Assembly: GCF_030865425.1 (NCBI RefSeq)
Contig: NZ_JAVFCB010000003.1
Span: 62,001 to 126,000, forward strand
Reading direction: 5' to 3'
Source of the DNA: Microbacterium capsulatum
GTDB lineage: Bacteria > Actinomycetota > Actinomycetes > Actinomycetales > Microbacteriaceae
Length of the DNA: 64,000 nucleotides
Shown piece by piece: positions 34,182 to 59,340 of this stretch (within the stretch, counting starts at the first letter, position 1; each line of letters opens with the position of its first letter). The notes beneath the pieces were generated by a model. That model ran no database searches and was not told where the DNA came from. It was given only the letters and a program-made list of their open reading frames with translations. The position numbers were made by a program, and so were the translations under genes.

Positions 34182-34201
34182 GATGGGCAATATGTCCCAC
34201 C
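34182..34201. promoter_or_regulatory. Shared 20-bp palindrome of the type VII locus (copy 1)
   Basis: GATGGGCAATATGTCCCACC lies 79 nt before the start codon of the variant-LRR gene. It matches the copies at 39470 and 59321, including the CG that follows CCATC when read on the minus strand. Confidence 0.7.
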
Positions 34202-34253
34202 GGGCGCCCTTCGTGATCGGGCGGCGTCTCAGGTCAGGACATCTGCGATCTCC

Positions 34254-34652
34254 TCAACCGCCGTATGCGGAGCCGTAATGCGCCAGCTGCGTGAACATCA
34301 CGATCCAGATGATCACCCCGATGACCGCCGCCGCGATGCTGAGATACCCGAGCACGAGCCCGGCAACGGCCAGCCCGCGCCCCTGCTCGCCCGTTCGCCG
34401 GATCTGCGCGAGAGCGACATGCCCGAAGACGACAGCGAGCAGCGAAATGAAGAACGCGAAGATCAGAGACAAGATCGCCATCGTGTTCGTGCGCGTCGAC
34501 AACGGGTAGCCGTCCGGGCCGACTCCTCCCTGCGGTTGAGCCGTCCGGCGACGGTTCGATGCGCTTGCGGTCACGACGATCACTACGACAACCACCACAA
34601 CGACGACCACGAACAAGATGATCAGGTGCCACCCGCTGAGTCCACCGAACAT
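34254..34652 (-). CDS. DUF4190-type membrane protein
   Basis: A 132-residue protein with an N-terminal helix made almost only of valine and isoleucine (residues 8-28), a short basic stretch, and two further helices. The segment TNTMAILSLIFAFFISLLAVVFGHVALAQIRRTGEQGRGLAVAGLVLGYLSIA is the DUF4190 signature. Function unknown; such proteins are common in actinobacterial envelopes. It is the last gene of the WXG-FHA operon, 14 nt after the upstream FHA gene. Confidence 0.75.
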   Translation of the reverse strand: MFGGLSGWHLIILFVVVVVVVVVVIVVTASASNRRRTAQPQGGVGPDGYPLSTRTNTMAILSLIFAFFISLLAVVFGHVALAQIRRTGEQGRGLAVAGLVLGYLSIAAAVIGVIIWIVMFTQLAHYGSAYGG

Positions 34653-34666
34653 GTGACTTCTCCTTG

Positions 34667-36373
34667 CTATCCGAGGCCGGCTTGGCTATCCGCGCCGGCT
34701 TGCCCGGCATGCCGGATCTGGATGACGAACTCGCCGAGGCGCAGGTCTGCGTCGCGCCGGACGGCGTGCGGCTGCTCGACGAGGACCCTGGTCGCCGAGC
34801 CGTCGATGACGATCGCCGTGCCGTTCGTCGAGTGCAGGTCGGTGACGAACAGCTCCCCGTCGCGGAGCTGAAGCTGCGCATGGGTCTTGGAGATCGACTT
34901 CGCCGGATCCCGCAGCGGCACCAGCACGGTTCCCGGCTCGGTCGGATCCGCGATCGGGTCGCGCCCGAAGCGCATCGCCGAACCGATCGGGAGCGTCCGC
35001 CCGTCGGGGAGGACGACCTGCCAGGCCGCGGCAGGCGAAACTACGCGAGTCACATCGAGGTCGTCCTCCTGGTCGACAGCGACCGCCGGACCTGACGGCG
35101 CGGTTGCGCCCAGCGCGGAATCGCTCGCCGCGGAGGCGGGATCCGTCGGCGCGAGGCCCGGGATGGAGGCGATCACCTCGCCAGCGCGCTCCGCGGGCGG
35201 CGGGACCCACCCCGGAACCACGGGCGGAACCCGCTCGTCCGACGGGACCACGACCGGTGTAGCAGCGACCGGGGCAGGTACCGGGGGAATGATTGGAAGC
35301 TGCGTGAGCGGTTCCGGCATCGGCGGAAGCGGTGCAGGCGCCGACACCCCGGTCGTCGTCAGCGGAATCGGCGGCACCGGAACCAGCGCCCCGGGCGGGT
35401 TCGACGAAGCCGGCGGAACGGGCGCGTCCGTATCTGCTTTCATCGCCTCGGCACTGTTCCGCGCGCGTTCCTGGCGCAGCTTGGCGGCAAGCTCGTCGGC
35501 GGCGGCGGAGTTCGCCCTGCGGCCGAGCAGGAAGCCGATACCGGCGATGACCCCGCCGAACACCAAGACCAGGATCGGTCCCACCGTGACGTTGCTGGGC
35601 GTCGCGTACCAGAAGATGAGCCCACCGACCGCGATCGCACCACCGACGATCTGCACCGTCCGGGCGGTCGACTCGCTGATCCCCGAGGCCGTGCTGACAC
35701 CGCCGCCTTCCTGCCCCAGGGGCGCAGGCGTGACAGGCCCGGGAGCCTGGGGCGTGGGAGGCACGGGCACCGGGGGCGCGACGGCGGCCGGCACAGGCCT
35801 GTCGGACGCGACGGTCTCCGCGGGGAGAGACACCGCGGAGACCGCCCCCGTGGACGGTGCGAAGGCAGGAAGGACCGGGTCCGGCGCCGGTACCGCCGCA
35901 GAGACCTCTGGAGGGTGGATCTCTTCTGGCGCGGAGGATGTCGGGACGGCCGAGGGCGTCGATACGACCGGCTCCCGGTCTTCGCGTTCGACCATCCGGA
36001 TCCGCGCCGAGGGATCAGCCGCCTGCATGGCCTGCCCGAAGGTCGTCATGAACCTGCGGTAGATCCCGATGCCTTCCATCGACTTCGGACCCACCGGGAT
36101 GAAATACACGGTGGTCTGCGAAGTGCGGTACTGCTCGATCGCGCTGACGACCCTGGTGCGGCCGTCCGCATCCTCGGCGGAGACCACGAAATGCATGAGC
36201 GCCCCGCCGAGCAGACCGGTCAGGGCGACCCGGATCCCGCTCGCTCCTTCCCCGATGATCCGCAGGCTTCTCTGCGTGCCCACGGCGTGGCGTGCGATCT
36301 CGATCGTGCGGTCGATCGACAAGTCGGAGTCGATCTCGATCCGTGCCTTGGCCAGCTTGTGCGGCTTCCCCAT
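34667..36373 (-). CDS. FHA-domain protein with membrane hairpin (568 aa)
   Basis: Residues 1-140 form an alpha/beta domain of no recognised family (LRIIGEGASGIRVALTGLLGGALMHFVVS ... TTVYFIPVGPKSMEGIGIYRRFM). After a Pro-rich linker, two helices cross the membrane (about 245-290). A second long Pro-rich linker leads to a C-terminal FHA domain (about 470-560) with RFGRDPI, KSISKTHAQLQL and DLHSTNG, i.e. all phosphothreonine-binding residues. It is thus a candidate substrate-docking partner of the locus kinase. Overlaps the preceding FHA gene by one base (TGATG). Confidence 0.75.
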   Translation of the reverse strand: MGKPHKLAKARIEIDSDLSIDRTIEIARHAVGTQRSLRIIGEGASGIRVALTGLLGGALMHFVVSAEDADGRTRVVSAIEQYRTSQTTVYFIPVGPKSMEGIGIYRRFMTTFGQAMQAADPSARIRMVEREDREPVVSTPSAVPTSSAPEEIHPPEVSAAVPAPDPVLPAFAPSTGAVSAVSLPAETVASDRPVPAAVAPPVPVPPTPQAPGPVTPAPLGQEGGGVSTASGISESTARTVQIVGGAIAVGGLIFWYATPSNVTVGPILVLVFGGVIAGIGFLLGRRANSAAADELAAKLRQERARNSAEAMKADTDAPVPPASSNPPGALVPVPPIPLTTTGVSAPAPLPPMPEPLTQLPIIPPVPAPVAATPVVVPSDERVPPVVPGWVPPPAERAGEVIASIPGLAPTDPASAASDSALGATAPSGPAVAVDQEDDLDVTRVVSPAAAWQVVLPDGRTLPIGSAMRFGRDPIADPTEPGTVLVPLRDPAKSISKTHAQLQLRDGELFVTDLHSTNGTAIVIDGSATRVLVEQPHAVRRDADLRLGEFVIQIRHAGQAGADSQAGLG

Positions 36374-37506
36374 CAGAGACCTGCTTCCTTACCCAGTCGG
36401 ATCGTGTACTCGCCGATCCGCAGCTCGGCATCGGCACGAACGAGAAAGGGCGCGCCCGGCGCGAGCACGGTCGGCGTGCCGTCGGCGAAACGAACGACCG
36501 TGCCGTTGGTCGAGTGCAGGTCGGTGACGAGGACCCCGTCCTCCGTGACCGAGAGTGCCGCATGCGTCTTCGAGATCGACTTCGCCGCATCGTCTAGCGG
36601 GATGAGAAGAGCGGACGGATCCGACGGATCAGCTCCCGGATCCCGTCCCAGTCGTGCAGAACATCCGAGTGCGATCTGCCGCCCGTCGGTGAGCACGATC
36701 CGCCAGGATCCGGTCGGCTGCACCGTGATCCGGGTCGCGTCAAGGCCGTCATCGGCGGCGGGAGCGACGATTTCGGGCATCGGCGGAGCAACGGGTACCG
36801 GGGGAGCGGGCGGCACGATTCCCGGGACTGCCTGGATCGGTGCCGCTGGCACAGGTGGAACGGCCATCGTTGGGATCGCTGGAGCCGGGGGCAGCGACGG
36901 CACGGTCGGCGCAGCGAACCCCCCGGACGACGTGGCAAACTCGGCGGCCGGGACAGCGGGCACGGGCGGCACCGAGGGAACGGCCGGCGCAGCGTAGGGC
37001 TGCGAAACCGGCCACTCGTACGCCATCCCGGGCACGACCGCCCCGAAGGATGCCCGGCCACCCGGAGGGCCGTCGAATCGCGCGCCCCGCGGGTCCGACG
37101 GTTGCAGCAGGAACACGAGCGTGATGATCGGCCCAGCGAAAGGGATCAGCGCGAACAGAAGCGTTAACCCCGAGCGGCCCGCATCGTGCAGACGGCGTAC
37201 ACCGACGGAGATCATCATGACCGATCCCGCGAGGAACGCGATCCAGACGAGCAGCCCGACGACGCTCAGGAACGCGACGATTCCGCTGTCGTACATGCTC
37301 ACGGTCACCACCCCGGCGATCGTCAGCAGGATCTCGACCGCCAAATAGCCGCCGTCCACAAGGAGCGCCGTCTTCCAGTACTCCGAGCGACTCGCGCGTC
37401 CCGTGTAGACGAAGGCCTTCTTCACGAAGCGCCGGGCCACCGCGTCGAACGGTGCCCCGTAGTACGGCTGGTCGAGCGGCGGTTCAGCCACAGGTTGGAT
37501 GGTCAT
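36373..37506 (-). CDS. DUF805-like membrane protein with C-terminal FHA domain
   Basis: A 377-residue fusion. Residues ~25-125 resemble DUF805 (FVYTGRASRSEYWKTALLV, then VRRLHDAGRSG and LLQPSDPRGARFDG) with four membrane helices. A Pro-rich linker (~140-235) follows. The FHA domain (~265-350) carries RLGRDPG, KSISKTHAALSV and DLHSTNG and is closely similar to that of the next gene, so the two FHA domains are duplicates. ATG 37506 has TTGGAG 8 nt upstream. Confidence 0.78.
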   Translation of the reverse strand: MTIQPVAEPPLDQPYYGAPFDAVARRFVKKAFVYTGRASRSEYWKTALLVDGGYLAVEILLTIAGVVTVSMYDSGIVAFLSVVGLLVWIAFLAGSVMMISVGVRRLHDAGRSGLTLLFALIPFAGPIITLVFLLQPSDPRGARFDGPPGGRASFGAVVPGMAYEWPVSQPYAAPAVPSVPPVPAVPAAEFATSSGGFAAPTVPSLPPAPAIPTMAVPPVPAAPIQAVPGIVPPAPPVPVAPPMPEIVAPAADDGLDATRITVQPTGSWRIVLTDGRQIALGCSARLGRDPGADPSDPSALLIPLDDAAKSISKTHAALSVTEDGVLVTDLHSTNGTVVRFADGTPTVLAPGAPFLVRADAELRIGEYTIRLGKEAGL

Positions 37507-37571
37507 CGTTTTGCTCCAAGGGGGTCGCGGGTGCGGATCATCGCCGATCGACGAGGCGGCGACGTCGGGCG

Positions 37572-38183: not shown

Positions 38184-38192
38184 GGTCGTCCT

Positions 38193-39050
38193 TTAATAGA
38201 CCTTGATGCCCATGGAGAGCAGCCAGTCGGCGGGGCCCTGCATGGCCGTCTCCGCAATCCTGTTCATCCACGGAGCCTTGCGCTCGACGTTGTCGTTGCC
38301 GAGATTGATGAAACCCTGCAAGCCCGAATAGCGCGTGGCGATCTCGCTTTCGGAATAGCCGCGCCCTTCCATCCACGCCATGTGCTCATCCCGCGACGCC
38401 TGATCCAGAGGGATGAAGAAGCCTGTCATTTCCTTCATGCCGCCCCAGAGCATCGATATGGGGCTCGGCGTAAACGAGAAGGCCCCGTCGGCAGCGGTGA
38501 GCATTGCCCCCGACCAGTCACCCTCCCTGACCGCCAGCGCCAACCGCGCCGCGTCATCGCCGAGGCCGATACCTTTCAAGGCAGAGCTGATGTAAGAACC
38601 GTGCGGCACCACCTTCCAGACGTCGAAGTCCTTCCCTGTCACGTTGCTCACGACAGACCCCGCCATATCGACGACATCCGAGAACGACTTGGATCCATCG
38701 ATCACCACGTCCTGGACGAAGGATCCGACTGATCCCGGGATGCCGACGAGGCCGCGCGCGGAGCCACCTCCGATCGCCCGACCCTGCGCCGCACTCGCCC
38801 GATCCTGCTCGTCGGCGTTGCGGCGCAGGTCGTTTGCGGCGGAGCGCAGGGTCTCGGCCGCGCTGTGCACGCGGCGGCTGTAATCCGAGTCCCACAGGTG
38901 CCGGAAGCGCACAGCGACCGGCCCGAGCCAGGCGGAGATCTGGATCGCGCTGCCCACCGTCATCCGATGCGCGTCCAGCTGCTGCGCGTGGCGGTCGAAC
39001 TGCTGCGCGAGGGTGCGCAGCTGCGCGATGTCCGCACCGTACATGGCCAT
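38193..39050 (-). CDS. Large WXG-type protein (285 aa), candidate type VII substrate
   Basis: Residues 1-100 form an ESAT-6-like helical hairpin: YGADIAQLRTLAQQFDRHAQQLDAHR, the WXG turn WLG at 41-43, then FRHLWDSDYSRRVHSAAETLRSAANDL. Unlike EsxA-type proteins it continues for ~185 residues, with a Gly-rich turn, a weakly hydrophobic stretch and an Asp/Trp-rich C-terminus (REGDWSGAML ... HMAWMEGRGYSESEIATRYSGL). No known toxin motif is seen. It could be a secreted effector or a structural partner of the 87-aa WXG100 protein 65 nt upstream. Two ATGs are possible (39050, 39044). Confidence 0.75.
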   Translation of the reverse strand: MAMYGADIAQLRTLAQQFDRHAQQLDAHRMTVGSAIQISAWLGPVAVRFRHLWDSDYSRRVHSAAETLRSAANDLRRNADEQDRASAAQGRAIGGGSARGLVGIPGSVGSFVQDVVIDGSKSFSDVVDMAGSVVSNVTGKDFDVWKVVPHGSYISSALKGIGLGDDAARLALAVREGDWSGAMLTAADGAFSFTPSPISMLWGGMKEMTGFFIPLDQASRDEHMAWMEGRGYSESEIATRYSGLQGFINLGNDNVERKAPWMNRIAETAMQGPADWLLSMGIKVY

Positions 39051-39115
39051 GGGCGGTCCCTTCTGAATCGTTCCCGGCCCGCCGCGACGACGTGTCGTGG
39101 CGGGCCGATCCGGGC

Positions 39116-39379
39116 TTACTGCGAGGCCTGCTCCTGCTGAGCGGCGTTCTGCTGGGCGTTCTGCGCGGCGTCGCGGAGAGCCTGGGCGACCTGCTTCAGC
39201 GCGGAGGTGTGCTGGCCCGACCAGTCGTTGCGGAACTTGGTCGCGTCGGGGCCCTCCCACTGGGTGTTGTTGAGCGCGCCGGTGAGGCTGCTCAGGATTG
39301 AGTCGATGTCCGACGCCTTCTGGCTGAGCTGGGTGCTCAGCTGCCGGACCTGCTGTACGTCAAGACCCCACACGGCCAT
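39116..39379 (-). CDS. WXG100 (ESAT-6-like) protein
   Basis: A classical 87-residue WXG100 protein: helix 1 VWGLDVQQVRQLSTQLSQKASDIDSILSSL, the WEG turn at residues 41-43, helix 2 DATKFRNDWSGQHTSALKQVAQALRDAAQ and a Gln/Ala-rich tail. Such proteins are exported as helical-hairpin dimers by EccC/EssC ATPases and serve as both substrate and component. It is the first gene of its operon, has RBS AGGAAAGGAAA, and lies 91 nt downstream of a copy of the shared palindrome, right behind the EssC-like gene. Confidence 0.9.
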   Translation of the reverse strand: MAVWGLDVQQVRQLSTQLSQKASDIDSILSSLTGALNNTQWEGPDATKFRNDWSGQHTSALKQVAQALRDAAQNAQQNAAQQEQASQ

Positions 39380-39469
39380 GTCGGTTTCCTTTCCTCTGCG
39401 GATCGATCGATCCGACGTCTTCTCGCTCCTGCGATACCCACAAGCTAGGGGCGGCCCCGCGGGGCTGTC

Positions 39470-39489
39470 GATGGAGAACATGTCCCATC
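39470..39489. promoter_or_regulatory. Shared 20-bp palindrome of the type VII locus (copy 2)
   Basis: GATGGAGAACATGTCCCATC is nearly a perfect palindrome. It begins 10 nt after the stop of the EssC-like gene and is 91 nt before the WXG100 start. It marks a separate promoter for the WXG operon. Confidence 0.75.
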
Positions 39490-39498: not shown

Positions 39499-42400
39499 TC
39501 ACACATGCGCCACCTGAACCTTCGCGGCACGGCCTCCCGCGATGAGGAATCCCCGGCCAGCGGGGAAATCCGCACGACGGATCCGGCCGAGCGGAGTCCC
39601 GAGGAGCAGGTCCCCGTCCATCTCTCCCGGCACGAGGATGAGCCCCCGGCGCGACGCCTTGAACGGCTGCCCGAGCGTGTAGGCCTGCGACCAGGTGGAG
39701 GACTCGCCCTCGCCGACGACGAACAGCTCTTCGCGGGCCGCGGCCTTCACGAGCCGGTCGAGCTCGTACTCCGCTTCGGTCCCGGTGAACTCTGGCAGCC
39801 CTTCGACGAAGAGCGCGAAGCGCTCGCGAGCCTCGATCCGCGGGACGAGTTCGGACGCCAGGGCGAGCACGGCCTCCGGGCCCTCGGCCCTGCGACTCCA
39901 TCCGGCGCTCGCGAGCACGCTGCGCCGCGACGAGAGCAGGACCGTCTGCAGGGCCGGATCCGCTCGACGCACCGCGGCGCCCAGCGTCGCGACCGCGGTG
40001 GTGCGCCCGCTGCCCGGAGGGCCGGCGAGCAGCAGCGGACCGCTGGTGCGCACGACCGCGGCGCCCAGCGTGACGTCGTCCACGCCGATCACCGGGGTCT
40101 CGGCCGGGCCCACCGGAAGATCCGCGAGCAGCACATGCTCGGGCACCCGTCCGACGCCGGCAGGCCGGGGACCCGTGGCGCGGCCGAGGCTGCGACCCAG
40201 CCGCTCCATCTCGCGGGCCTGCTCGGCGATGTTCCCGCTCGCCCCGAGCACGGCGATCTGCACCTCCAGCCCGCGCACGATGCCCCGCCCTGGCGGGGAG
40301 ACCGGGCTCAGCACGTCGCGCGGCGCACCGAGCATGAGGTAGTCGTCCTCGTGCGCGAGTCGCAGCACGATGCGCTGCTGCATGGTCGACGCGATCGAGG
40401 TCGGCAACGCATTCGGCCGATCCGCCGTGGCGACCACATGCACGCCGAGCGCGCGACCGTCCGCGGCGATCTGAGCGAAAGCGCTGAACGAGGCGCTCAG
40501 ATGCGCGGCCCCGAACTCGTACTGCTCCTTGAAGGCACCGATCCCGTCGACGAGCAGCAGGATACGCGGCTCCTCGGGCGCCTGCGCGAGCGCACGGTAC
40601 TCCGAGACGGATCCGGCGTTCACGGCCGCATAGCGGACGGCACGCTCGTCGACGATGTCACGGAGGAGGCGCAGCAGGCGCACCACACGCTCCTCATCGT
40701 CGCCCTGGATGATCGCGCCGACGTGCGGGAGCCCGTCGAGCATGCTGAGACCCCGGGAGCCGAAATCGAGGCCGTAGACGTGCGCCGGTCCGCCGTGACG
40801 GGCGGTCGCCGCGGCCGCGACGGCGATCGTGCGCAGCGCCGTACTCTTGCCGGCTCCGCCCGCCCCGAAGATCACCAGGTTGCCGTCGTCGGGCTCGAAG
40901 AAGAACGCCGGCTGTGCCTGCCGGGCCGGTTCGTCGATCACGCCGAGCGGCAGCGCGGTGTCGACCCTCGGGTTGGGCAGCCGGTCGAACCGGTACACCG
41001 CCGCGAGCTCGTCGAGCCAGGGTCTCCGCGGCGCGGGGATCCCGGCACGGGTCGCCGCCTCGCCCGCCGTGCGCACGATGCGGGAGATGTCGTTCGGGCC
41101 GCTCTCCACGGCGACCTGCTCGGCCTGCGGCTCCTCCCAGTCGGCGTGCACGCCGAAGCCCAGGCCGGCGACGTCGATCCGGGGCGTCGGCGGCTCACCG
41201 CTGGTGTGCCCGCCGGCGTAGCCGGTCTGGAACGGGATCAGGCGGCCCGGCCCGATCTTCACCGCTCCCCTGCCGGGGACCGACGGGTCGAAGAAGGCGG
41301 CCATCTGATCGCCGAGGATGTCGGCGGAGTCCTCGGCGTCGGCCATCCGCAAGGCGATGCGCAGGTTAGTGTTGGCACGCAGGTTGTCCTTGATCACGCC
41401 CGCCGGGCGCTGGGTAGCGAGTACCAGATGCAGGCCCAGCGAACGGCCGCGCTGAGCGACGTCCACGACGCCGTCGACGAACTCGGGCACCTCCTGCACG
41501 AGTGCGGCGAACTCGTCGACCACGATCACGAGACTCGGCGGGCACGCCGGATCCCCGCTCTTCTCCATCGACGCGAGATCCTTCGCGCCGGCCGCATTGA
41601 GCACATGCTCGCGGTGGCGCAGCTCTGCGCGCAGCGACTCGAGCGCCCGCCGCACGAGGTGCGGGGAGAGGTCGGTGACGAGCCCCACGGTGTGCGGAAG
41701 CTGGACGCAGTCGGCGAACGCCGCTCCGCCCTTGTAGTCGACGAACAGGAACGTGAGCCGGTCGGGGCTGTGCGCGGCAGCCATCGCGAGCACCCAGGAC
41801 TGCAGGAACTCGCTCTTTCCCGCGCCGGTCGTTCCGCCGACGAGCGCGTGCGGGCCGTCGGCACGCAGGTCGAGCGAGAACGGCTCCGATCCGGCATGGC
41901 CGAACACCGCCCGCAGCGTCCCGTCTCGCCTGCGCGGGGCGGCAGCGTCGCCGCGTGCCGTGATGGATCCGCTCTGGCGCCAGCGGTCGACGATCGCGTC
42001 CGCGTCATCGAGCACGTCGTCTCCGAGCAGCGCGGGCAGCCCGATGGATCGCGGCAGGTCGGAGTCGTCGACGTCCGGCGTGCCGATGTCGACGACCGGG
42101 GCCAGCTGACGGGCGAGGTACTCGGCCCCGGCGATGTCGAGCCGCTCCGGAACGATGGGAGTGGCCAGCGTGCCGTGACGCACCTGTCCGGTTGCGGCGG
42201 TGCCCTGATCGTCCACGTGCACCACCGCGCGGCAGGCCGCCGGCAGCTGCTCGACCCTCGGAGCGCACCACACCAGGTGCACGCCGGCGTCCGGGCCGCG
42301 TTCGGCGATGCGGGTCAGCCTCGCCCGGTCGGCGGGCACGCCGTGCTCGACGAACACGACGAGCGCCGGGACACGAGGTTCGGGCATGTCGGACGGCGCG

Positions 42401-43905
42401 GACTCGTCGATGATGCCACGTCGCGCGACGTCCCCGATCCGAGCGTCGATGGCCTCCTCGATCCGCGACAGCACCGCGCCGAGAGCACCGCGGTTGTCGG
42501 CGAGATGCACCCCGCCGAGAGGGCTGTGGGCTGTGCTCGTGTGGGGCAGCCACGCCAGCCACTGCCACTCGGGTGCGGCGGTCGGCGGGATGAGCGCCGC
42601 GATCGCCATCTCGGTCGGGGCGTGCCGGATCGCGAGCTGGGCGAGCAGCCCCCGCGCGACGTCGCGGGCAAGCGATCCGGCGACGCCGACGGATCCCGAC
42701 TCCCGCAGCGCCACCGCCACCGGCACGTCCGCGATCGTCGCGTAGCGGTCGCGGAGCTCGTGCAGCTCGCGAATGCTCTCCGGCAGGGTCTGCTGCGCGG
42801 GAGGCAGTTCGACCTCGGTGCGGGAGCGATCTGCACCGGTGCCGGTGCGAACGGCGAGGAACGTGCCGGACTCGGCGCGTTCCGTCCACAGCAGCGGTCC
42901 GAGCCGGAGCGCGTCCTGCTGCAGGGCGGCGAGGCTGGGCAGCTCCTCCTCGCGCACCGTGCGCTCTCGCGTCTGCAGCTCGTCGAGCCGCTCCCGAGTG
43001 AGCTGCATCGCCCCCGCGAACGCCTTCTTCCCGGCCTTGAGCGTGCGCCTCCCGACGAGCGCCTGATCGATGAACGCGCCGACGAGCAGCAAGGGGCTCA
43101 TCGCCATCATGAGCACGCCGAGCAGCTGACCGGTCAGAGCCCACATCACGGCGCCCATCACGAGCGGCGCGGCCAGCGCGATGTACGGGAAGCGCTGCCG
43201 AGGAGGCAGCTGGGGCGGCGCCGGCGCGGCGACCTTCTCGCCCGGGAAGCGCGGAACAACGCGCGGAGAGCGGATGTGGTCGATCTGCGGCGCGGAGGCC
43301 GCCCCGCCCTGCTGCAGGCGGGACAGAGAGAGCACCGAGTCGCCGATCGTCGCCGTGTCCGTCGGCCCGAGCACGACCCGGCCGATGCGGGTCCCGTCCA
43401 CGACCACCCCGTTCGCGGATCCGAGGTCGACGATCTCGATCCGGTCGGAGACGTTGATCCTGGCGTGCCGTTTGGAGACCAGCGGATCGCCGAGACGCAC
43501 GTCGACGTCGCGGTCCCGCCCGATCACGGTCGCGCCCTCGGGGAGGGCGAACTCCGCACCGGCGTCCGGTCCGGCCAGCACCCGCAGCCGGGCGGCGGCA
43601 GGCCCGCGGTCGCGAGGCGCGAAGCGATCCTGTTCGGGCACCGCTATCGCCTCGACGTGCATGCCCGAGAGCAGCCCGGCCTCGGCGATGGTCGTGTCGG
43701 CAGCCAGCGGGCGCCCGCCGTGCGGTGCGGACGCGTCGAGGATCCGCAGCGACACGGCGCCGCCCGCGGACGCGCCGGATCCGATCCCCTGGGGATCCGT
43801 CCGCACGAGCCGTCGGGCGACGTCGCCCACGGTCGCGGTCGCATCCACGGTGATCGCGAGATCGGTGCGGGCGGAGCCCGAGTGAAGAGTGACCTTCAGC
43901 TTCAT
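39499..43905 (-). CDS. EssC/EccC-like FtsK/SpoIIIE ATPase of the type VII secretion system
   Basis: A 1,468-residue motor. Residues 1-90 look like a ubiquitin-like YukD/EccD domain and ~105-190 form an FHA domain (VIGRDRDVDVRLGDPLVSKRHARI, DLGSANG). Two membrane helices (about 238-283) follow, then three P-loop domains: GGTTGAGKSEF (~691) with SLVIVVDEFAAL, FGAGGAGKSTAL (~1030) with ILLLVDGIGAF, and GPPGSGRTT (~1290), where the Walker Lys is Arg. FHA at the N-terminus is the EssC (Firmicutes type VIIb) layout rather than mycobacterial EccC. ATG 43905 overlaps the upstream gene by 4 nt. Confidence 0.92.
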   Translation of the reverse strand: MKLKVTLHSGSARTDLAITVDATATVGDVARRLVRTDPQGIGSGASAGGAVSLRILDASAPHGGRPLAADTTIAEAGLLSGMHVEAIAVPEQDRFAPRDRGPAAARLRVLAGPDAGAEFALPEGATVIGRDRDVDVRLGDPLVSKRHARINVSDRIEIVDLGSANGVVVDGTRIGRVVLGPTDTATIGDSVLSLSRLQQGGAASAPQIDHIRSPRVVPRFPGEKVAAPAPPQLPPRQRFPYIALAAPLVMGAVMWALTGQLLGVLMMAMSPLLLVGAFIDQALVGRRTLKAGKKAFAGAMQLTRERLDELQTRERTVREEELPSLAALQQDALRLGPLLWTERAESGTFLAVRTGTGADRSRTEVELPPAQQTLPESIRELHELRDRYATIADVPVAVALRESGSVGVAGSLARDVARGLLAQLAIRHAPTEMAIAALIPPTAAPEWQWLAWLPHTSTAHSPLGGVHLADNRGALGAVLSRIEEAIDARIGDVARRGIIDESAPSDMPEPRVPALVVFVEHGVPADRARLTRIAERGPDAGVHLVWCAPRVEQLPAACRAVVHVDDQGTAATGQVRHGTLATPIVPERLDIAGAEYLARQLAPVVDIGTPDVDDSDLPRSIGLPALLGDDVLDDADAIVDRWRQSGSITARGDAAAPRRRDGTLRAVFGHAGSEPFSLDLRADGPHALVGGTTGAGKSEFLQSWVLAMAAAHSPDRLTFLFVDYKGGAAFADCVQLPHTVGLVTDLSPHLVRRALESLRAELRHREHVLNAAGAKDLASMEKSGDPACPPSLVIVVDEFAALVQEVPEFVDGVVDVAQRGRSLGLHLVLATQRPAGVIKDNLRANTNLRIALRMADAEDSADILGDQMAAFFDPSVPGRGAVKIGPGRLIPFQTGYAGGHTSGEPPTPRIDVAGLGFGVHADWEEPQAEQVAVESGPNDISRIVRTAGEAATRAGIPAPRRPWLDELAAVYRFDRLPNPRVDTALPLGVIDEPARQAQPAFFFEPDDGNLVIFGAGGAGKSTALRTIAVAAAATARHGGPAHVYGLDFGSRGLSMLDGLPHVGAIIQGDDEERVVRLLRLLRDIVDERAVRYAAVNAGSVSEYRALAQAPEEPRILLLVDGIGAFKEQYEFGAAHLSASFSAFAQIAADGRALGVHVVATADRPNALPTSIASTMQQRIVLRLAHEDDYLMLGAPRDVLSPVSPPGRGIVRGLEVQIAVLGASGNIAEQAREMERLGRSLGRATGPRPAGVGRVPEHVLLADLPVGPAETPVIGVDDVTLGAAVVRTSGPLLLAGPPGSGRTTAVATLGAAVRRADPALQTVLLSSRRSVLASAGWSRRAEGPEAVLALASELVPRIEARERFALFVEGLPEFTGTEAEYELDRLVKAAAREELFVVGEGESSTWSQAYTLGQPFKASRRGLILVPGEMDGDLLLGTPLGRIRRADFPAGRGFLIAGGRAAKVQVAHV

Positions 43906-50877: not shown

Positions 50878-52157
50878 GTCGCCACCGCCGACATGGCGCG
50901 GCGCAGCTCGCCGAGAGCGGGCACGTCCACGGTCACGAGGTCGCCGACGACGTGCCGGGCGAGGCTCTCCGCGGAGGTCGCCCGCAGCGCCAGCGCCTGC
51001 GCGGCGGGAGGGACCCGTGTGGCGGCCTGCCGCAGCTGCTGCAGCGGGACCGCGGATCCGGCCACGAACGCGACGATCGAGACCGCGGGGGCCTTGGTCG
51101 CGACGGTGCGAGCGGTCTCTGCGAGCGTCGCCGCGGCAGCGGTGCGCTCCACACCGGAGAGCAGGTCGAGCAGGGCGGCCGGGGTGGGCGCGTGCAGCAG
51201 GCTCTCGGACGCCGCGACCCGCACGTCCTTCCCGTCCCGCAGAGCGCTCACCGCGATGGATCCCGCGATCGACACGGCGAGTTCGAACTCGTCGTCGTCG
51301 GAGTACTCGTCGGCGCGGGTCGACAGGGCGATCACGAGCTGGGAGCGCCGGGTCTGCTCGAACTGCCGGATCATGAGTTTCTGCGTGCGGGCGGTCGACT
51401 TCCAGTGCACGTAACGCAGGTCGTCACCGGGCACGTACTCGCGCAACGCGTGGAACGACACGTCGTCGTCGGCGAGGTCGCGCGTCGGCAGTCCCTCGAG
51501 ATCGCGCAGAAGACCGGTCGTGTCGCCGTCCAGCGGCACGGTGCGCGGATGAACGTACAGCTGGGTCGGTTCGGTCCAGGCGACCTCACGACGCAGGACG
51601 CCGAGCGGATCCGTGCGCTCCGAGGAGACCGGTCCGAGGGTGAGCACCGCACGGCGCTGGGTGGGGATCTGGAACAGCTCGTCGTGCACGGCATCCGCGG
51701 CCAGCCGCGGCACCCGGAACTGCGCCTTCGCCTGCCCCACAGGCAGCACGATCCAGGCGGAGGGCGACCCGCGCCGTCCGGCTGCACGCACGACCACCCG
51801 CCCGACCGCGGACTCCCCGACGACGACCCGAGGTGAGGCCAGCTCGACGGCGACGGCGTACTGCGCCCGTCCGATCACGAACGGGACCGCAAGCACGAGC
51901 ACCAGCACGGCGGCCGCCCCGACGGCGATCAGCTCGGCCCACCCCCAGAGCACGCCGGCGGCGAGCGCGAGGACGGCGACGCCCGCGAGCGCCCAGCCGA
52001 GCGCGGTGGCGATGCGCAGCCTGCGGCCGACCGCGGCGAGCGCCGCTCGGATCGGACCTGCGGACGCTCCCGCCCACGCGCGCGCACGTGCGACCGCCCG
52101 GGCTCCCCTCGTGTCGGAGAACGCCGTACGCGAGGCGGCGGGAGCATCGACGGTCAT
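50874..52157 (-). CDS. DUF58 domain protein
   Basis: A 427-residue protein with two membrane helices close together (about 50-95), a beta domain, and the DUF58 signature FHALREYVPGDDLRYVHWKSTART at about 260. The C-terminal half is vWA-like, with a degenerate metal site (VIALSTRADEYSDDDEFELAV). DUF58 proteins are nearly always encoded with a MoxR ATPase, as here (4-nt overlaps on both sides), and are thought to work with it in assembling or activating a protein complex. Confidence 0.9.
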   Translation of the reverse strand: MTVDAPAASRTAFSDTRGARAVARARAWAGASAGPIRAALAAVGRRLRIATALGWALAGVAVLALAAGVLWGWAELIAVGAAAVLVLVLAVPFVIGRAQYAVAVELASPRVVVGESAVGRVVVRAAGRRGSPSAWIVLPVGQAKAQFRVPRLAADAVHDELFQIPTQRRAVLTLGPVSSERTDPLGVLRREVAWTEPTQLYVHPRTVPLDGDTTGLLRDLEGLPTRDLADDDVSFHALREYVPGDDLRYVHWKSTARTQKLMIRQFEQTRRSQLVIALSTRADEYSDDDEFELAVSIAGSIAVSALRDGKDVRVAASESLLHAPTPAALLDLLSGVERTAAAATLAETARTVATKAPAVSIVAFVAGSAVPLQQLRQAATRVPPAAQALALRATSAESLARHVVGDLVTVDVPALGELRRAMSAVAT

Positions 52158-53128
52158 GCCACGCTCACCCTGGACTGCGGAGCGGCGACGTCGGCAAGCA
52201 CCCGGGCGACGACCCCCTCGGCACTGGCCCCCGAGAACTCGGCATCGGGATCCATGACGATTCGGTGGGCCCACACGGGCCCAGCAAGCGCCTTGATGTC
52301 GTCCGGGATGACGTACGTGCGGCCCTCGGCGGCGGCCCAGATCTTCGCGGCGCGCATCATGGCGACCGCGCCGCGCACGGAAACCCCCAGACGCGTGTTC
52401 GGATCACGTCGGGTCTCTTCGGCAAGCTGGGCGACGTAGTGCAGCAGCGCGTCGTCCACGTGCACGGTCGCCAGCAGGTCCGAGAGGTCGGTCACCGCGC
52501 TCGTGGTGATCATCGGCTGCAGGGCGGCGGCACGGTTCTTCGTGTGGGATCCGCGCAGCACCTCGGCGGCGGCCGCGAGATCCGGGTAGCCGATCGACGT
52601 CTTGATCAGGAACCGGTCCAGCTGCGCCTCGGGCAGCTTGTACGTGCCGGCCTGCTCGATCGGGTTCTGCGTCGCGATGACCATGAACGGGCGGCCGGCC
52701 TCGTGCGAGGTGCCGTCGACGGTGATCCGGCCCTCCTCCATGACTTCGAGCAGCGCCGACTGGGTCTTCGGTGACGCCCGGTTGATCTCGTCCGCGAGCA
52801 CGATCGATGCGAAGATCGGGCCCTTGTGGAATTCGAAGCGGTGCTGCTGCTGGTCGTAGATCGTGATGCCGGTCACGTCGCTCGGCAGCAGGTCGGGCGT
52901 GAACTGGATCCGCGCGTGCGAGCCCTGCACGGTCGCCGCGAGCGCCTTGGCGAGCTGCGTCTTGCCGGTTCCCGGCGCGTCCTCGAGCAGCACGTGCCCC
53001 TCGGCGACGAGCGCCGTGAGCACGAGCCGGATCACCTCCTGCTTGCCGAGCACGGCCTGCCCGATGTTCTGCGCGAGCTGCGAGAACGTCTGGGAGAACC
53101 AGGTGGCCTGTTCTTGGGTGAGTGTCAT
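52154..53128 (-). CDS. MoxR-family AAA ATPase
   Basis: A 324-residue chaperone-like ATPase. Walker A is LLEDAPGTGKTQLAKAL (51-57), Walker B is IVLADEINRASPKTQSALLEVM, sensor 1 is VIATQNPIEQAGTYKLPEAQLDRFL, and a C-terminal lid domain follows. It belongs to the MoxR proper subfamily that works with DUF58/vWA partners. Start ATG 53128 lies 14 nt after the giant surface-protein gene; the RBS is AAAGGAAT. Confidence 0.94.
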   Translation of the reverse strand: MTLTQEQATWFSQTFSQLAQNIGQAVLGKQEVIRLVLTALVAEGHVLLEDAPGTGKTQLAKALAATVQGSHARIQFTPDLLPSDVTGITIYDQQQHRFEFHKGPIFASIVLADEINRASPKTQSALLEVMEEGRITVDGTSHEAGRPFMVIATQNPIEQAGTYKLPEAQLDRFLIKTSIGYPDLAAAAEVLRGSHTKNRAAALQPMITTSAVTDLSDLLATVHVDDALLHYVAQLAEETRRDPNTRLGVSVRGAVAMMRAAKIWAAAEGRTYVIPDDIKALAGPVWAHRIVMDPDAEFSGASAEGVVARVLADVAAPQSRVSVA

Positions 53129-53142
53129 GACATTCCTTTGCG

Positions 53143-56100
53143 TTACCAGCTCGTGGTGTTGGAAGGTTTGGAGCCGTACGGGTCGGTGATCACGACCTGG
53201 TACGGGCCTCGCCAGGAGTTCGTCGGGTACGCGGAACCGATCGGGCAAAGCTGGGTGTCGATGGATCCACCACCATCGACTCCCACCTGCACCGTCTTCC
53301 AGGGACTTCCGGAGGTGTCGTTGTAGCAGCCGACCGTCACTTGGCTGTTCGGTTGGAATCCACCCGCCGTGACGTGGAAGTAGTAGCAGCCCGGCGCTGC
53401 TGCTGTGCAGGATCCCGTCGTCACGCCGCCGACGTACTGGTTCCCCTTTGCCAGATTCACCCAGCGCCCGGGGTTCGCTCCCGTGCTCCCGTTCGCGGTG
53501 TACGTCGCAGACTTCCCTTCGGCCGTGTTCACCGTCATCGTGAACCCGAACGTCGTGTAGTACGCCGATCCGGAGCACGCGCTGCCGGTGACGCCGCCCG
53601 CACCGGACTGACCGCCCTGCGCCGAGTACGTGAGCGACGTGAGCGTCTGCCCGTCGAGCGCCCCGGAGACGTCCCAGCTGAAACAGACCTGGCTGCCGTT
53701 CACCGACGAGTTCGGCGTGTAGCCCAGCAACGGCCCCCAGGGCTTTCCCGCGTTGCTCGTGGTGGCGGGACCGGCGGTCTGCGAGACCGCAGACACACCA
53801 TGCACGCTGATGGTCTGCGTCTGACCGTTCGGTGCGCCGTTCACGGTTCCGACCACCTGCGTCTGTGATGCGGACGAGACGGCGATCTGCCCCGAGTTCC
53901 AGTACCAGCTGACCTCATTCGGCGCGTTGCCGTTCCAGGCGCCCGGAGTGATGGTGACGCTGAACTGCCCCGCCGTTCCGGTCGCGGCGATCTGGACCGA
54001 GACGGGCGCATCGGGCGCGTTCGCGGCCTGCATCGGCGCCGATGCTGGGCTGGGCGCCGACGACCCCGCCTTGTTCGTCGCTACCACCGTGAAGGTGTAG
54101 CCACTCGTGCTCGTGCCTACCGAGAACTTCGCCGACGTCGTCGAGCCGGAAACGGTCTGCTGACGCGACTGCCCGTCGCCGCCTGTCGCGGTGACCGTGT
54201 AGGTCGCGACCTCGTCGCCATTGTTCCTCGGCGTGGTGACCGCCTGCCAGGTCACGTCCAACTGCGCCTGGCTCCCCACCGAGGGCGCGAACGAGGCCTG
54301 CGGCTGCCCGGGCGCGTCGGGCACGCCGGCGGGCACCATGGGCGCCGACCACGCGCTCCAGTCGGAGGGGTCGGGTGCGAGGTTGTGCGCGCGGATCCGC
54401 ACCTGGTAGGAGACGCCGTTCTGCAGGCCGTCCCAGCTGAGACTGTTGCCCGAGACGCCGAGCTTGTCCGCTGCTGCACCGAGCTGCGGCGTGATCTGCA
54501 GGTCGTAGTTCGTGACCGGCGAGCCGTTCGAGTTCGGCGTCGTCCACGAGACCGCGAGCTTCTTGTCACCGAAGGCCAGCGTCGGCGCGGCCGGCATGTC
54601 GGGCCGTGCGTCGGGGCGTGCATCCGCCGACGTCGGCGACGGGTCGGACGAGCCGATCGCGTTCACCGCGACCACCTGGAAGCGGTACACGACGTTGTTC
54701 GTCAGCCCGTCCAGTGTGCAGGTCGTCGAGGCGCAGTTCTTCGAGTAGCCGTTCTGCGAGGTCACGACGTAACCGGTGATCGGCGAGCCGTTGTTCGACG
54801 GCGGCGCCCACGACAGCACGACCGTGCGGTCCTGGATCGAGGTCACGGTCGGCACGCCGGGCGCACCTGGCTTGCCGCGCACGGTGAGCACGATCTTGGC
54901 CTCAGCCTGACGATCCGGCGAGTTCGTCGCATCCGCGATCCGGTAGGTCACGATGAGCGTGCCGAAGAAGTCGGACGCGGGTGTCACGGACACCTTGCCG
55001 TCCTGGATCGTCGCCGTGTGGGATCCGGGGGTGTCGACGTGCACCGAGACGATCGTGAGCGGCTTCTCGCCCTGGAACGGGTTGAAGTCGTTCGCGAGGA
55101 CGTCCACAACGCTCGCCACGCCCTGCTTGGCGTCAGGCACGAGGTCGTCGTTCGCGACCGGCATCGGCCGCTGCGTCGTGACGATCGAGATCGTGACGAC
55201 GCCCTCGCCCGGCTTGCTCTTGCCGTCGTCCGCGGTGACCTTGAACGACAACGTCGCCCCGGGCTTCAGGTCGGAGGCCGCCTTCACCGTCAGCGCACTG
55301 CCGGAGATCGAGGCGTCGATGCCGTTCGGCGCCGAGCCTTCGATCGCGTAGCTCATGCGATCCAGATCTCCCTCGTCGGGATCGGTTGTGAGCCTCTTCA
55401 GGTCGAGCGTCAGGCCTGCTTCCCCCGGAGCGAGGCTGACGGCGGCGTTGCGCAGCGTGGGCGACTGGTTCTCCAGGGGCTGCACCAGGATCGGGATGGT
55501 CACGTACGCGGACAGGCCCTGCGGATCGTCCGGGCCCGTGCCGTCGGTGACCCGCACGCCCACGGCGTCGGGCCCGAAGTAGCCCTTCGCCGAGGTGTAC
55601 TGCAGATGCTCGGCATCCTTCAGGAGCGGCGCCCCGTCGGCATGACCCGCACGGAGCGAATCCGCCACGGCGATGCGCGGGGTACGGCCGCTGCGGACCA
55701 TCACGTGGTCGGCGAGAACGATCGAGACGCTCTCGCCGCTCTTCACGACGATCGGCGTGGTGTCCGTGACCGTCGGCACGGCGTCCTTGGTCCCGGGCAC
55801 GAAGATGAACGCCTGCGCAGTGAGACCGTCCTGGTCGGTGTCCTCGTATCGGATGACCTGCGGATCCGCGGCGACCTTCACCTCGACGATCCCGCCCGCC
55901 AGCACCTTCGCGTTCGGCGAGAACGCGGTGACGGTCAGCTGGTCGGTGGTGCCGTCCGGGTTCTCGTCGTTCTGCAGCACCGAGACCTTGACGCTGTCCG
56001 ATCGCATCACGGCCGAAGCCGGCACGTGGTCGTCGCGGGCGATCGGCGGCTTCAGCGGCGCGTCGCTCGAGACGTTCAACAGGAGCGGCGCCTGCGCCGT

Positions 56101-59100
56101 CGCGCCGTACACGTCGGCGATCGTGTAGGTCAGCGTGTACTGACCCGGCTGAGCCGGGGCTGTGACGACGACACGACCGCCGGCGATGGAGGCCTTGATC
56201 CCGGACGGCACCGTGAGCCCGCTCGTCACGAGCGAGATCTGATCCCCGTCAGGATCGCTGTCGTTGGCCATCACGGGCACCGCGATGGTGCGCCCCGGGC
56301 GCACGTCCACGACGTCCTTGACCGCGTACGGTGCCTGATTGTCGGCGCCGGGGGGCGCGACGCCCACGGTCACCGTGCTCTCCGCGGTCGCGCCGAGGCG
56401 GTCGCGCACGACGTACGTGAACGAGTCGCGCCCCTGTGACGTGTCGTAGGCGGTGTAGGTCAGCCAGGCATCGCCCACGGTCACCCGGCCCAGCGACGGG
56501 CTCGAGGACGTACCGACGAGTTCGACGGAGTCGCCGTCCGGATCGATGCCGTCGAGCGGGATCGGGATCCGCACGGTCGTTCCCGCGATCGCACGTGCGA
56601 TCACCGGCTTGGGCAGGGGCGCGGAGTTCGTCGCCGCATCGGCGGCGAGCACCTGCACCGTGAGATAGCCAGCGACCCTGTTCCCCTGACTGTCGGTCAC
56701 CTGGTATGTGATGTAGGCGGGGCCCGGCTTGGATCCGGCCTGGAAGCGCACACGGCTGCCGTCGACGAACGCCGCCCCGTCGCCGATCTTCGTGTCGACG
56801 AGGTCGGGCAGCAGCGTCAGGGTGTCGTTGTCGGGCGAGTAGTCGTTGGCGAGCACGTCGACAGAGACCACGTCGCCGACGCGGACGACAGCGTTGTCCG
56901 GAACGCTCACCGGCGGACGCAGCGTCGCCGGCAGCGGTACAGGCACGACGAGGATCTCGCCCTCGGCGCTCTGCAGGCCGTCCGAGATGGTGTAGCCGAT
57001 CGTCATCGGCTGGTGCAGGCCGCCGATATCGGTCACCCGCACGACGGAGTGGTCGAGCACCTCGGCCGACACCGGGGAACCCGGGGGAACGTGCACGCTC
57101 TGCACGACGAGCACCCCTCCGCCCGGATCCTCGTCGTTCGCGAGCACGTCGACGAGCACGTTGCGACCGGTCGGCAGCAGGGCCGTGTCGCGCACGGCGA
57201 TGGGCGGATGCCCGTTCCCGCCGGCCGGCGCGACATCGATGCGGATGAGACCGGCGGCCGATTCGGCGCCCGAGGTCACGAGGTACTGCACGTAGTACGT
57301 ACCTTGCGCGTCCGCTTCGAACGTCAGGGTGTTCGCGGTGTAGTTCGGGGTGATCTTCGCACCCGGTGCGTAGTCGTTGCGGGCGAGGCGCAACGGCTCC
57401 CCCGATCGGCTGATGTCGTTGTCGAGCGGCGAGAGGGTGATGGGGGTGCCCGCCGTGGCGGTGTAGTGATCGGCGTTCGCGATCGGGGCGAGCGAGCCCT
57501 TCGGCCGCACGTCGACCTTGAGCACTCCGGTCGTGCTTGCCTGGCCGTCCGAGACCGTGAGCGCGACGTCCTTGATTCCGGTGGCACCGCTCGCCGCGCG
57601 GAACTCCATCACGCCGTTGGTGCGCGTGGTGACGACATCGCCGCCGGCGACTTCCGCGTGCTGCAGGAACAGGTCGTCGCCGTCCGGGTCCTTCCAGCCC
57701 TGTAGTGCGTCGTACGTGATGCTCGCGCCGGCCTCGACCTGGATCGTCTGCGGACTCTCCAGCACGGGCGGGGAGTTCTCGGAGAGCGGATGGATGGTCA
57801 GCGTGACCGTCGCCTGGTCGGTGCCGCCGCGTCCGTCGTCGACCTGGTATCGGAAGCTCGCCGTACCGGTGGCCGCCGCCGGCACCGCGACCTGCAATGC
57901 CGCACCGCCGAGGACCGGAGTCACCGTCATCCCTGAGGGCGGTGCGCCCACGAGGGAAGCCGACAGCAGATCGCCGTCGGGGTCCGTGTCGTTCTCAGTG
58001 ACCCTCAGCACCGACGTCCGGCCGGGGCGCACCCCGTACGAGTCGTCACGCGCGGTCGGCTTGTGGTTCTCGGCGCTGCGCTTGGGCAGCTCGAGCTGTT
58101 GCTGCTGTTCTTCGCTCTGGTCCTGCTGCTGCTTGTCGTCGGGCGGAGGGACGACGTCGTCCCAGTTCTGCACGAGCTGAGCCTTGGTGCTGACCACCCA
58201 GACCATTCCGCCGCGGGTGTCGTTGACGACGACCACGCGACGGTTGACCCGGAGGACCGGGGTCGCCGCGGCCGGCATGTCGAGCTTGACGTTCACGGTC
58301 GGCTGCCCGTCGCATCGGCGCACGTAGGCGCCGTTGCCCCACACCGCGTAGGCGCAGCCGTTCAGCCACACTGGCGGGGACGGGGCGCCACCGGCATCGT
58401 CCGAGCGCAGGATCTGCGCGGCCGACCCGTCGAGCGGTTGACGGATCAGCGCGGATCCGGTGGCGAGGTAGGCGGCGTCGCCATCGGCGGACGTCTGCTG
58501 CAGACGAGCGCCCGACGACTTCGGGATCGAGATCGTGCGCCCGTTCTCGACGAGCACGCCGTGGCGGGCGTCGAACACGACCGGAATGTCGCCGACGGCC
58601 GCCAATTGCACCTGTGCATCCGCGGCCAGTCCGTCCAGCGTTTCCGTGCGCACCGTGCTCGACGCCGTGTCGACGGTGACGAGCTTCTTCTGCGCGGGAG
58701 CCACGGCGTACAGGAAAGACCCGTCGTGGGCGATCGCGACCACGCCGCCGTCGCCCACCGTGGCGAGCGAGCCCTTCTTGTCGAAGCGCGCGCCGACGAC
58801 GCGGTCGGTCGCGACGGCGTAGAGCCTGCCGCCGCCCAACACGCCCATCTCCGCACCGCCGAGGACGACCGTCGATCCACCTGGCATCGCCTGCTGCCCG
58901 GTGAACTGATTCGAGGCGGGATCGATCGGAGAGAGAACCCCGTTGGCACGGTCGACCACGACGACGCGGTTGCCGTCCTGCAGCACGTCGTAGTCGGGGG
59001 CCGTGGTGCGCAGCGCCCCGTCGAGCAGGCGCGACGGGTAGTTCAGGTGACCGACGAGCAGGTCGTTCGACTTGGTGACCCACACCCCGCCGTCGTCCAG

Positions 59101-59232
59101 CCGCAGGTCGGCCGTGGGGATTCCCTGATAGAGAACCGCGAGCGTCGAGATGGTGACTGCCGCGGCGGTCAGTGTCGCCCCCGAGGCGAGCATCGCGCGC
59201 CGCTCCCTGAGCACGCGGAAGAGCCTCGACAC
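53143..59232 (-). CDS. Giant surface protein: membrane anchor, propeller-like domain, Ig-like repeats, FN3 domains
   Basis: A 2,029-residue protein starting at GTG 59232 (AGGTGG lies 5 nt upstream). A basic N-terminus and one hydrophobic helix (about 14-36) act as an uncleaved anchor. Residues ~45-355 repeat short beta segments like a propeller. A Gln/Glu-rich linker (361-390) follows, then a long array of cadherin/Ig-like repeats with VLANDxDPDGD-type motifs (about 395-1440). FN3 domains follow (VVLSWAPPSNNGSPITGYVV, LAVSWTTPNSNGSPVTNYDL and more), and the last ~150 residues are Cys-containing. It corresponds to the fn3 gene of the bifidobacterial PFNA cluster. First gene of the long operon. 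Confidence 0.85.
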   Translation of the reverse strand: MSRLFRVLRERRAMLASGATLTAAAVTISTLAVLYQGIPTADLRLDDGGVWVTKSNDLLVGHLNYPSRLLDGALRTTAPDYDVLQDGNRVVVVDRANGVLSPIDPASNQFTGQQAMPGGSTVVLGGAEMGVLGGGRLYAVATDRVVGARFDKKGSLATVGDGGVVAIAHDGSFLYAVAPAQKKLVTVDTASSTVRTETLDGLAADAQVQLAAVGDIPVVFDARHGVLVENGRTISIPKSSGARLQQTSADGDAAYLATGSALIRQPLDGSAAQILRSDDAGGAPSPPVWLNGCAYAVWGNGAYVRRCDGQPTVNVKLDMPAAATPVLRVNRRVVVVNDTRGGMVWVVSTKAQLVQNWDDVVPPPDDKQQQDQSEEQQQQLELPKRSAENHKPTARDDSYGVRPGRTSVLRVTENDTDPDGDLLSASLVGAPPSGMTVTPVLGGAALQVAVPAAATGTASFRYQVDDGRGGTDQATVTLTIHPLSENSPPVLESPQTIQVEAGASITYDALQGWKDPDGDDLFLQHAEVAGGDVVTTRTNGVMEFRAASGATGIKDVALTVSDGQASTTGVLKVDVRPKGSLAPIANADHYTATAGTPITLSPLDNDISRSGEPLRLARNDYAPGAKITPNYTANTLTFEADAQGTYYVQYLVTSGAESAAGLIRIDVAPAGGNGHPPIAVRDTALLPTGRNVLVDVLANDEDPGGGVLVVQSVHVPPGSPVSAEVLDHSVVRVTDIGGLHQPMTIGYTISDGLQSAEGEILVVPVPLPATLRPPVSVPDNAVVRVGDVVSVDVLANDYSPDNDTLTLLPDLVDTKIGDGAAFVDGSRVRFQAGSKPGPAYITYQVTDSQGNRVAGYLTVQVLAADAATNSAPLPKPVIARAIAGTTVRIPIPLDGIDPDGDSVELVGTSSSPSLGRVTVGDAWLTYTAYDTSQGRDSFTYVVRDRLGATAESTVTVGVAPPGADNQAPYAVKDVVDVRPGRTIAVPVMANDSDPDGDQISLVTSGLTVPSGIKASIAGGRVVVTAPAQPGQYTLTYTIADVYGATAQAPLLLNVSSDAPLKPPIARDDHVPASAVMRSDSVKVSVLQNDENPDGTTDQLTVTAFSPNAKVLAGGIVEVKVAADPQVIRYEDTDQDGLTAQAFIFVPGTKDAVPTVTDTTPIVVKSGESVSIVLADHVMVRSGRTPRIAVADSLRAGHADGAPLLKDAEHLQYTSAKGYFGPDAVGVRVTDGTGPDDPQGLSAYVTIPILVQPLENQSPTLRNAAVSLAPGEAGLTLDLKRLTTDPDEGDLDRMSYAIEGSAPNGIDASISGSALTVKAASDLKPGATLSFKVTADDGKSKPGEGVVTISIVTTQRPMPVANDDLVPDAKQGVASVVDVLANDFNPFQGEKPLTIVSVHVDTPGSHTATIQDGKVSVTPASDFFGTLIVTYRIADATNSPDRQAEAKIVLTVRGKPGAPGVPTVTSIQDRTVVLSWAPPSNNGSPITGYVVTSQNGYSKNCASTTCTLDGLTNNVVYRFQVVAVNAIGSSDPSPTSADARPDARPDMPAAPTLAFGDKKLAVSWTTPNSNGSPVTNYDLQITPQLGAAADKLGVSGNSLSWDGLQNGVSYQVRIRAHNLAPDPSDWSAWSAPMVPAGVPDAPGQPQASFAPSVGSQAQLDVTWQAVTTPRNNGDEVATYTVTATGGDGQSRQQTVSGSTTSAKFSVGTSTSGYTFTVVATNKAGSSAPSPASAPMQAANAPDAPVSVQIAATGTAGQFSVTITPGAWNGNAPNEVSWYWNSGQIAVSSASQTQVVGTVNGAPNGQTQTISVHGVSAVSQTAGPATTSNAGKPWGPLLGYTPNSSVNGSQVCFSWDVSGALDGQTLTSLTYSAQGGQSGAGGVTGSACSGSAYYTTFGFTMTVNTAEGKSATYTANGSTGANPGRWVNLAKGNQYVGGVTTGSCTAAAPGCYYFHVTAGGFQPNSQVTVGCYNDTSGSPWKTVQVGVDGGGSIDTQLCPIGSAYPTNSWRGPYQVVITDPYGSKPSNTTSW

Positions 59233-59320
59233 CGATACCACCTCGAACCCCCCAGACCTCTGCCACGCCGCCCACCGCGACGTGCCACCTCCGACAGAAC
59301 CGGAACGCACGCCGAACCGC

Positions 59321-59340
59321 GATGGGGAATATCCCCCATG
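59321..59340. promoter_or_regulatory. Shared 20-bp palindrome of the type VII locus (copy 3)
   Basis: GATGGGGAATATCCCCCATG lies 89 nt before the giant surface-protein start. Like copies 1 and 2 it has CG after CCATC on the minus strand (CCATCGCGG). It is in a 463-bp gap between divergent genes that holds no further gene. Confidence 0.7.

Follow-up and report, generated by a model that had tools for sequence, protein, structure and literature searches.

The window, a 64,000-nucleotide stretch of Microbacterium capsulatum DNA, contains a type VII secretion locus whose genes lie on the minus strand. A long unit is headed by a Big_9/Fn3 protein (53143..59232), followed by a MoxR-type AAA ATPase (52154..53131), a DUF58 protein (50874..52157), a TgpA-like transglutaminase protein (48589..50877), a PP2C-type phosphatase (47777..48589; Pfam PP2C_2 at 6e-5 with 23.1 bits, below the cut-off of 24), an FHA-domain protein (46336..47790), a Ser/Thr protein kinase (44645..46339; Pfam Pkinase 4.7e-41), an FHA-HTH protein (43902..44648) whose gene overlaps that of the kinase by 4 bp, and an EccC/EssC-type ATPase in which an N-terminal FHA accompanies FtsK/SpoIIIE domains (39499..43905; Pfam FtsK_SpoIIIE 1.1e-51). 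A second unit starts with a WXG100 protein (39116..39379), whose profile scores lie below the curated cut-offs (WXG100 22.5 bits against 27.3; TIGR03930 30.1 against 44.85), and continues with a second WXG100-related protein (38193..39050), assigned from blast relatives and a weak TIGR03930 match (E 0.016), a DUF805-FHA protein (36373..37506) and an FHA-domain protein (34667..36373). An LRV_2 protein (32637..34103) lies in another unit, and a gene for an HTH-DUF2690 protein (59696..60607, plus strand) is the divergent neighbour of the Fn3 gene.

Each unit is preceded on the minus strand by a 20-bp palindrome that we predict to be an operator: 34182..34201 before the LRV_2/TM gene, with an A..T core; 39470..39489 before the WXG100 gene, with a counterpart in a related genome, G064 (L281:9278); and 59321..59340 before the Fn3/Big_9 gene, with counterparts in G064 (L283:4082) and G122 (L284:1069). 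The genes behind this last site overlap or lie no more than about a dozen bases apart, so that the FHA-HTH gene is probably part of the unit that starts there. The preliminary description had reported the element at these three places, 79, 91 and 89 nt from the start codons and followed in minus-strand reading by CCATCG; a re-reading of the sequence confirmed the positions, the distances (starts at 34103, 39379 and 59232) and the hexamer. In the three 20-mers, 14, 12 and 16 of the 20 positions equal their own reverse complement.

Fitted to all three sites, a degenerate pattern matched the organism's own genome (3,988,377 bp, or 4.0 Mb, in 17 contigs) three times and its backwards control not at all, and GATGGGGAATATGTCCCATC with up to three mismatches returned the same three matches, all at the type VII locus (reversed control 0); because these patterns were fitted to the sites, it is the missing fourth match, together with recurrence in relatives, that is informative. 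The looser GATGGG-N8-CCCATC, with one mismatch, gave 14 sites (control 1), three at the window locus, three on contig C17 at a second type VII cluster and eight elsewhere.

Across relatives the general form of the site is GATGGGGAnnnnTCCCCATC, found in 74 of 149 genomes of the same genus (control 1) and, with one mismatch, in 88 of 297 genomes of the order (control 2), where it amounts to 223 sites against two for the control pattern. GATGGGNAATATNNCCCATC with two mismatches occurs in 25 of the 149 same-genus genomes (control 2). This first genus pattern, with its ATAT core, missed most relatives, the core being a dialect of the window's clade. A class-wide scan matched 16 of 296 genomes; the order, with 30 genomes in that set, accounts for 13. 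The idea of a motif common to the whole class was rejected, as outside the order three of 266 genomes matched against four with the control pattern. The three are G492, with five copies of one repeat, G609, with one site, and G551, with one site and an FHA-HTH homologue. The G492 copies (GATGGGGAATTTTCCCCATT, near-identical, within 23 kb of contig C7) belong to a member of another order for which no FHA-HTH match is listed, and are probably unrelated to the operator. A scan of GTDB species contigs found at least 119 stretches with a site; among the 80 matches listed, 12 come from other phyla by title and most others from genera that we take to be Micrococcales. Relatives of the Fn3, EssC, WXG100, MoxR/DUF58, kinase or FHA-HTH genes flank a part of these loci, while others show small WXG-like genes with no homologue in the window and some show nothing recognisable.

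In 120 fetched loci, paired half-sites were found 46 times without mismatch and 48 times with one (control 0 in both cases), and 96 times with two mismatches against 40 in the control. A position weight matrix built from these pairs found 140 sites at a score of at least 10 and none in the reversed sequence. Pattern, half-site and matrix counts, set against their controls, rule out a chance origin of the palindrome. The site also keeps its place: 47 of the 53 EssC 3' ends with enough sequence carry one within 350 bp. The six others are L281, L317, L320, L322, L367 and L368, of which L281 has a weaker site (score 9.7). The proposal that the locus forms a regulon through a common cis-element is thus strongly supported, the strict scan of the genome having produced nothing beyond the three sites and the motif being strongly kept at orthologous loci. 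In G013, three identical sites recur at 464-bp spacing (C1:1794594, 1795058 and 1795522), which suggests a tandemly amplified gene.

The reach of the element was read from the genes downstream, after sites at least 80% alike in their downstream sequence had been removed, as was also done for the −10 and −35 counts below. A downstream reading frame follows all but one of the 194 oriented non-redundant sites, and 141 of these 193 genes fall into the five largest similarity groups, which are WXG-type, helical and Fn3 proteins: 40 with WXG100 relatives, 37 in a group of 95 residues (one example matches Pfam WXG100 at 43 bits), 37 in a longer group (median 440 residues), 17 in a group of 112 residues and 10 Fn3 proteins. 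The frames were chosen by a simple coding score, so individual assignments can be wrong. Examples from the 440- and 112-residue groups had no match in a Pfam scan, so that it is their place in the regulon and their appearance that link them to type VII secretion. The regulon is wider than the three units of the window and includes unlinked substrate genes in relatives. In genus g62, a site stands before a gene judged by eye to be FlgB-like (L150, L151 and L152, from G276, G357 and G407), 115 nt away in L150 and L152 and before a longer frame in L151; the box has possibly spread to flagella in this genus.

Among 43 non-redundant sites adjacent to EssC, 40 are followed by TANNNT starting 22 nt (23 cases) or 23 nt (17 cases) after the palindrome; at the same spacing on the opposite side it occurs in none. 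At the remaining non-redundant sites, TANNNT is present on at least one side in 175 of 276. In the window the predicted −10 hexamers, all on the minus strand, are TAGCTT (39442..39447; 23 nt after the palindrome), which is canonical, and two weaker ones, each 22 nt after it: TGAGAT (34155..34160), with its second base off TANNNT, and TTCTGT (59294..59299), which also departs from it. TGRGAT stands at the offset of the window's TGAGAT, counted by hand, at three G064 sites in L281 and L282. Such a rigid distance to the −10 could also mean that an alternative sigma factor reads the element as part of an extended promoter, with no dimeric regulator involved. We consider this highly improbable: the 20-bp two-fold symmetry speaks against it, the −10 is of the canonical TANNNT type, and no such factor was recognised among the cluster proteins scanned.

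The −35 region is less well defined. With spacers of 16–19 nt, the best match to TTGACA reaches only two or three of six bases in 24 of the 40 promoters, four in 13 and five in three; at an arbitrary downstream place used for comparison, 39 reach three or fewer and one reaches five. From these counts, a partial TCGAC-like −35 overlaps the end of the palindrome in some promoters and most do without; one that has it is that of the window site at 39470, where TCGACA lies 18 nt upstream of TAGCTT (39442..39447). If the −10 is placed at −12 to −7, simple arithmetic would put the palindrome centre at about −43.5 or −44.5 from the predicted start. The site therefore abuts or replaces the −35 at a fixed distance from the −10, as sites of class II-type activators do, and this placement suggests that the element is likely an on-switch.

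A protein covering the −35 might instead be a repressor: the FHA-HTH protein could bind the palindrome and keep RNA polymerase out, its release depending on the kinase or the secretion machine. EspM, an FHA-HTH regulator of type VII secretion in mycobacteria, is a repressor of whiB6, the gene for an activator of ESX-1 genes (PMC7002343), and the partial −35 found in 16 of the 40 promoters lies where a bound protein would occlude it. In the other 24, however, the −35 is no better than three of six, and a repressor would have no need of a −10 phase that is constant within one base. Repression is, in our view, unlikely, albeit the strongest of the competing explanations.

The preliminary description had named two proteins of the locus as candidate regulators, and the FHA-HTH protein fits by co-occurrence, adjacency and operator co-variation. 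At E <1e-30 it has homologues in 125 of the 297 genomes of the order. With nine weak matches (E >1e-7) left out and G037 and G111 retained in every count, 81 genomes have both site and homologue, seven the site only, 44 the homologue only and 165 neither; the corresponding genus figures are 68, 6, 27 and 48. Outside the order, strong homologues occur in six of 266 genomes, four of them in family f40 without a site and one in G551 with a site. Matches with internal stops were seen in five genomes of genus g58 (G425, G356, G289, G406 and G261) and in G272, where the stop precedes the conserved domain and a mis-set start is likely.

AlphaFold models of this 248-residue protein show an FHA domain with the expected beta-sandwich fold and a NarL/LuxR-like helical domain, the latter being a moderate fold match. 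A Pfam search with six members, up to E 10, returned no family, the FHA profile included, and a sequence search of solved structures gave no match. When the whole protein was used in a structure search, the matches fell mostly on the FHA part, for which reason the C-terminal domain was modelled separately; none of the listed matches was a solved structure with the same architecture over its full length. The phosphothreonine pocket of FHA domains comprises the Arg of a GR, the Ser of an SxxH and the Asn of an NG motif; here Arg41 and Asn71 are conserved and the Ser was not found.

Co-occurrence is confounded by linkage, and the element could instead be bound by a regulator encoded elsewhere, with the FHA-HTH protein merely a signalling part of the cluster. 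In line with this, G037 and G111 have strict sites at WXG-like and Fn3 genes with neither an FHA-HTH homologue nor a full-length EssC relative. Yet 215 of the 223 sites of the order are in genomes with an FHA-HTH homologue, and the 172 genomes without one share just eight. Moreover, the dialect of the site differs between two clusters of one genome and matches the FHA-HTH protein of each, a pattern not expected if one unlinked protein bound both. An unlinked regulator is, on this balance, improbable.

The second cluster, type VII/PFNA-like, is the one on contig C17 of the organism's own genome (L205, L290 and L291). It encodes its own FHA-HTH protein, 59% identical to that of the window, and carries three sites with a G..C core, two of which precede an Fn3 gene and a WXG100 gene (L291:7001-7318; WXG100 score 48.3), respectively. 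All eight sites of the window and of the matching G064 locus read A..T at core bases 9 and 12; among those in G064, one lies nearer to a third, diverged FHA-HTH gene. Four of the five second-cluster sites of the two genomes have the G..C core, the fifth scoring only 9.3. Elsewhere the A..T core is found at two of three sites in G122, one of five in G055/G007/G009 and none of 124 at the remaining FHA-HTH loci. In a tree of FHA-HTH proteins, built by a quick method, the window protein groups with that of L281 (G064) inside a seven-member set with support 100, and the C17 copy groups with that of L292 (G064). The operator dialect thus tracks the FHA-HTH clade, including the two paralogous clusters of one genome. 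The third G064 protein is encoded at C70:24096-24776 (L281:18027-18806) next to another copy of the kinase gene; a site (L281:19836) lies close by.

The A..T dialect has a second companion. The HTH-DUF2690 gene, the other candidate, adjoins the Fn3 gene in the window, in G064 (L283:4462-5280) and in G122 (L284:80-910), and these three share the A..T core, as might be expected if a membrane-anchored sensor regulated at least the A..T sites of the window. Against this stands its distribution: strong homologues (best E <1e-20) occur in nine of the 297 genomes of the order, including two of the 88 with a site, 30 have any match at E 0.001, and tblastn found no relative at 80 plus 20 site loci. On these numbers the protein is rejected as a general regulator, and a regulatory role for it even at the window's own sites seems quite doubtful. 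Its position beside Fn3 in G064 and G122 makes a local role in the A..T clade conceivable, possibly as a co-regulator.

Taken together, we think it probable that the palindrome is an order-wide type VII promoter element that the FHA-HTH protein likely binds, activating as a dimer from the −35 place. Binding by this protein, its dimerisation and activation rather than repression are all predictions. An FHA-HTH dimer would sit on the palindrome 22 or 23 nt before the −10 and touch RNA polymerase, substituting for a good −35, and machinery and substrate genes would be switched on jointly. More speculatively, the FHA domain may sense phosphothreonine that the neighbouring kinase writes and the PP2C phosphatase removes, through which envelope signals might flip the whole regulon; and, as the unit beginning at the site at 59321-59340 probably includes the FHA-HTH gene, activation would reinforce itself. 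Whether the protein is a kinase-wired, LuxR-like master activator that runs a Micrococcales type VII regulon through a portable 20-bp box, marking machinery and substrate genes wherever they lie in the genome, is a more tentative matter, for which we see a little less than an even chance; on the same reading, paralogous systems of one cell that use different box dialects would be separately controlled.

A common box gives a direct listing of likely type VII substrates in actinobacteria of the order, and if the master-activator reading is true, the box alone would predict unknown type VII effectors. The analysis also names one testable regulator family of at least 4196 proteins that has no Pfam model, and provides a simple case of co-variation between regulator and operator in paralogous systems of one cell. 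The literature found on the control of type VII secretion concerns mycobacteria and Bacillota; in titles and abstract openings, with thin coverage of subscription journals, we found no work on this box or on a Micrococcales FHA-HTH regulator of type VII secretion.

LuxR/NarL-type activators use boxes of about 20 bp at the −35 region, the lux box lying near −42.5. The system described here resembles them in its 20-bp palindrome at the −35 place and its similar predicted DNA-binding fold, and differs in having FHA instead of a receiver or acyl-homoserine-lactone domain and in lacking a match to Pfam GerE. T7SSd and other type VII variants share the ATPase with N-terminal FHA, the WXG100 protein and the Ser/Thr kinase, and possible phosphorylation control of these variants is discussed (PMC11217815); the passages considered describe no FHA-HTH regulator or operator, and the main text does not contain the words Micrococcales, Microbacterium or helix-turn-helix. 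The locus is also like the PFNA operon of Bifidobacterium, with its kinase, Fn3 protein, AAA ATPase, DUF58, transglutaminase and FHA (PMC8430577): the kinase, fn3, AAA, duf58 and tgm gene types are all present. The PFNA order begins with the kinase, unlike the gene order here, and the terms WXG, type VII and promoter are absent from the main text of the same paper. A likeness in domain plan is seen with EspM (and EspN) of mycobacterial ESX-1, which likewise combine an N-terminal FHA with a C-terminal HTH domain beside the type VII locus they control (PMC7002343 and PMC11005418); here too FHA precedes HTH at a type VII locus, the HTH part resting on the moderate fold match. EspM is longer, its constructs reaching residue 363 against 248 residues here, and the main text of PMC7002343 does not use the word "motif", whereas for the present protein there is a defined candidate operator, which is widespread and whose geometry resembles that of activator sites. 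By analogy, EspM offers a precedent for the FHA-HTH domain plan, with the opposite sign.
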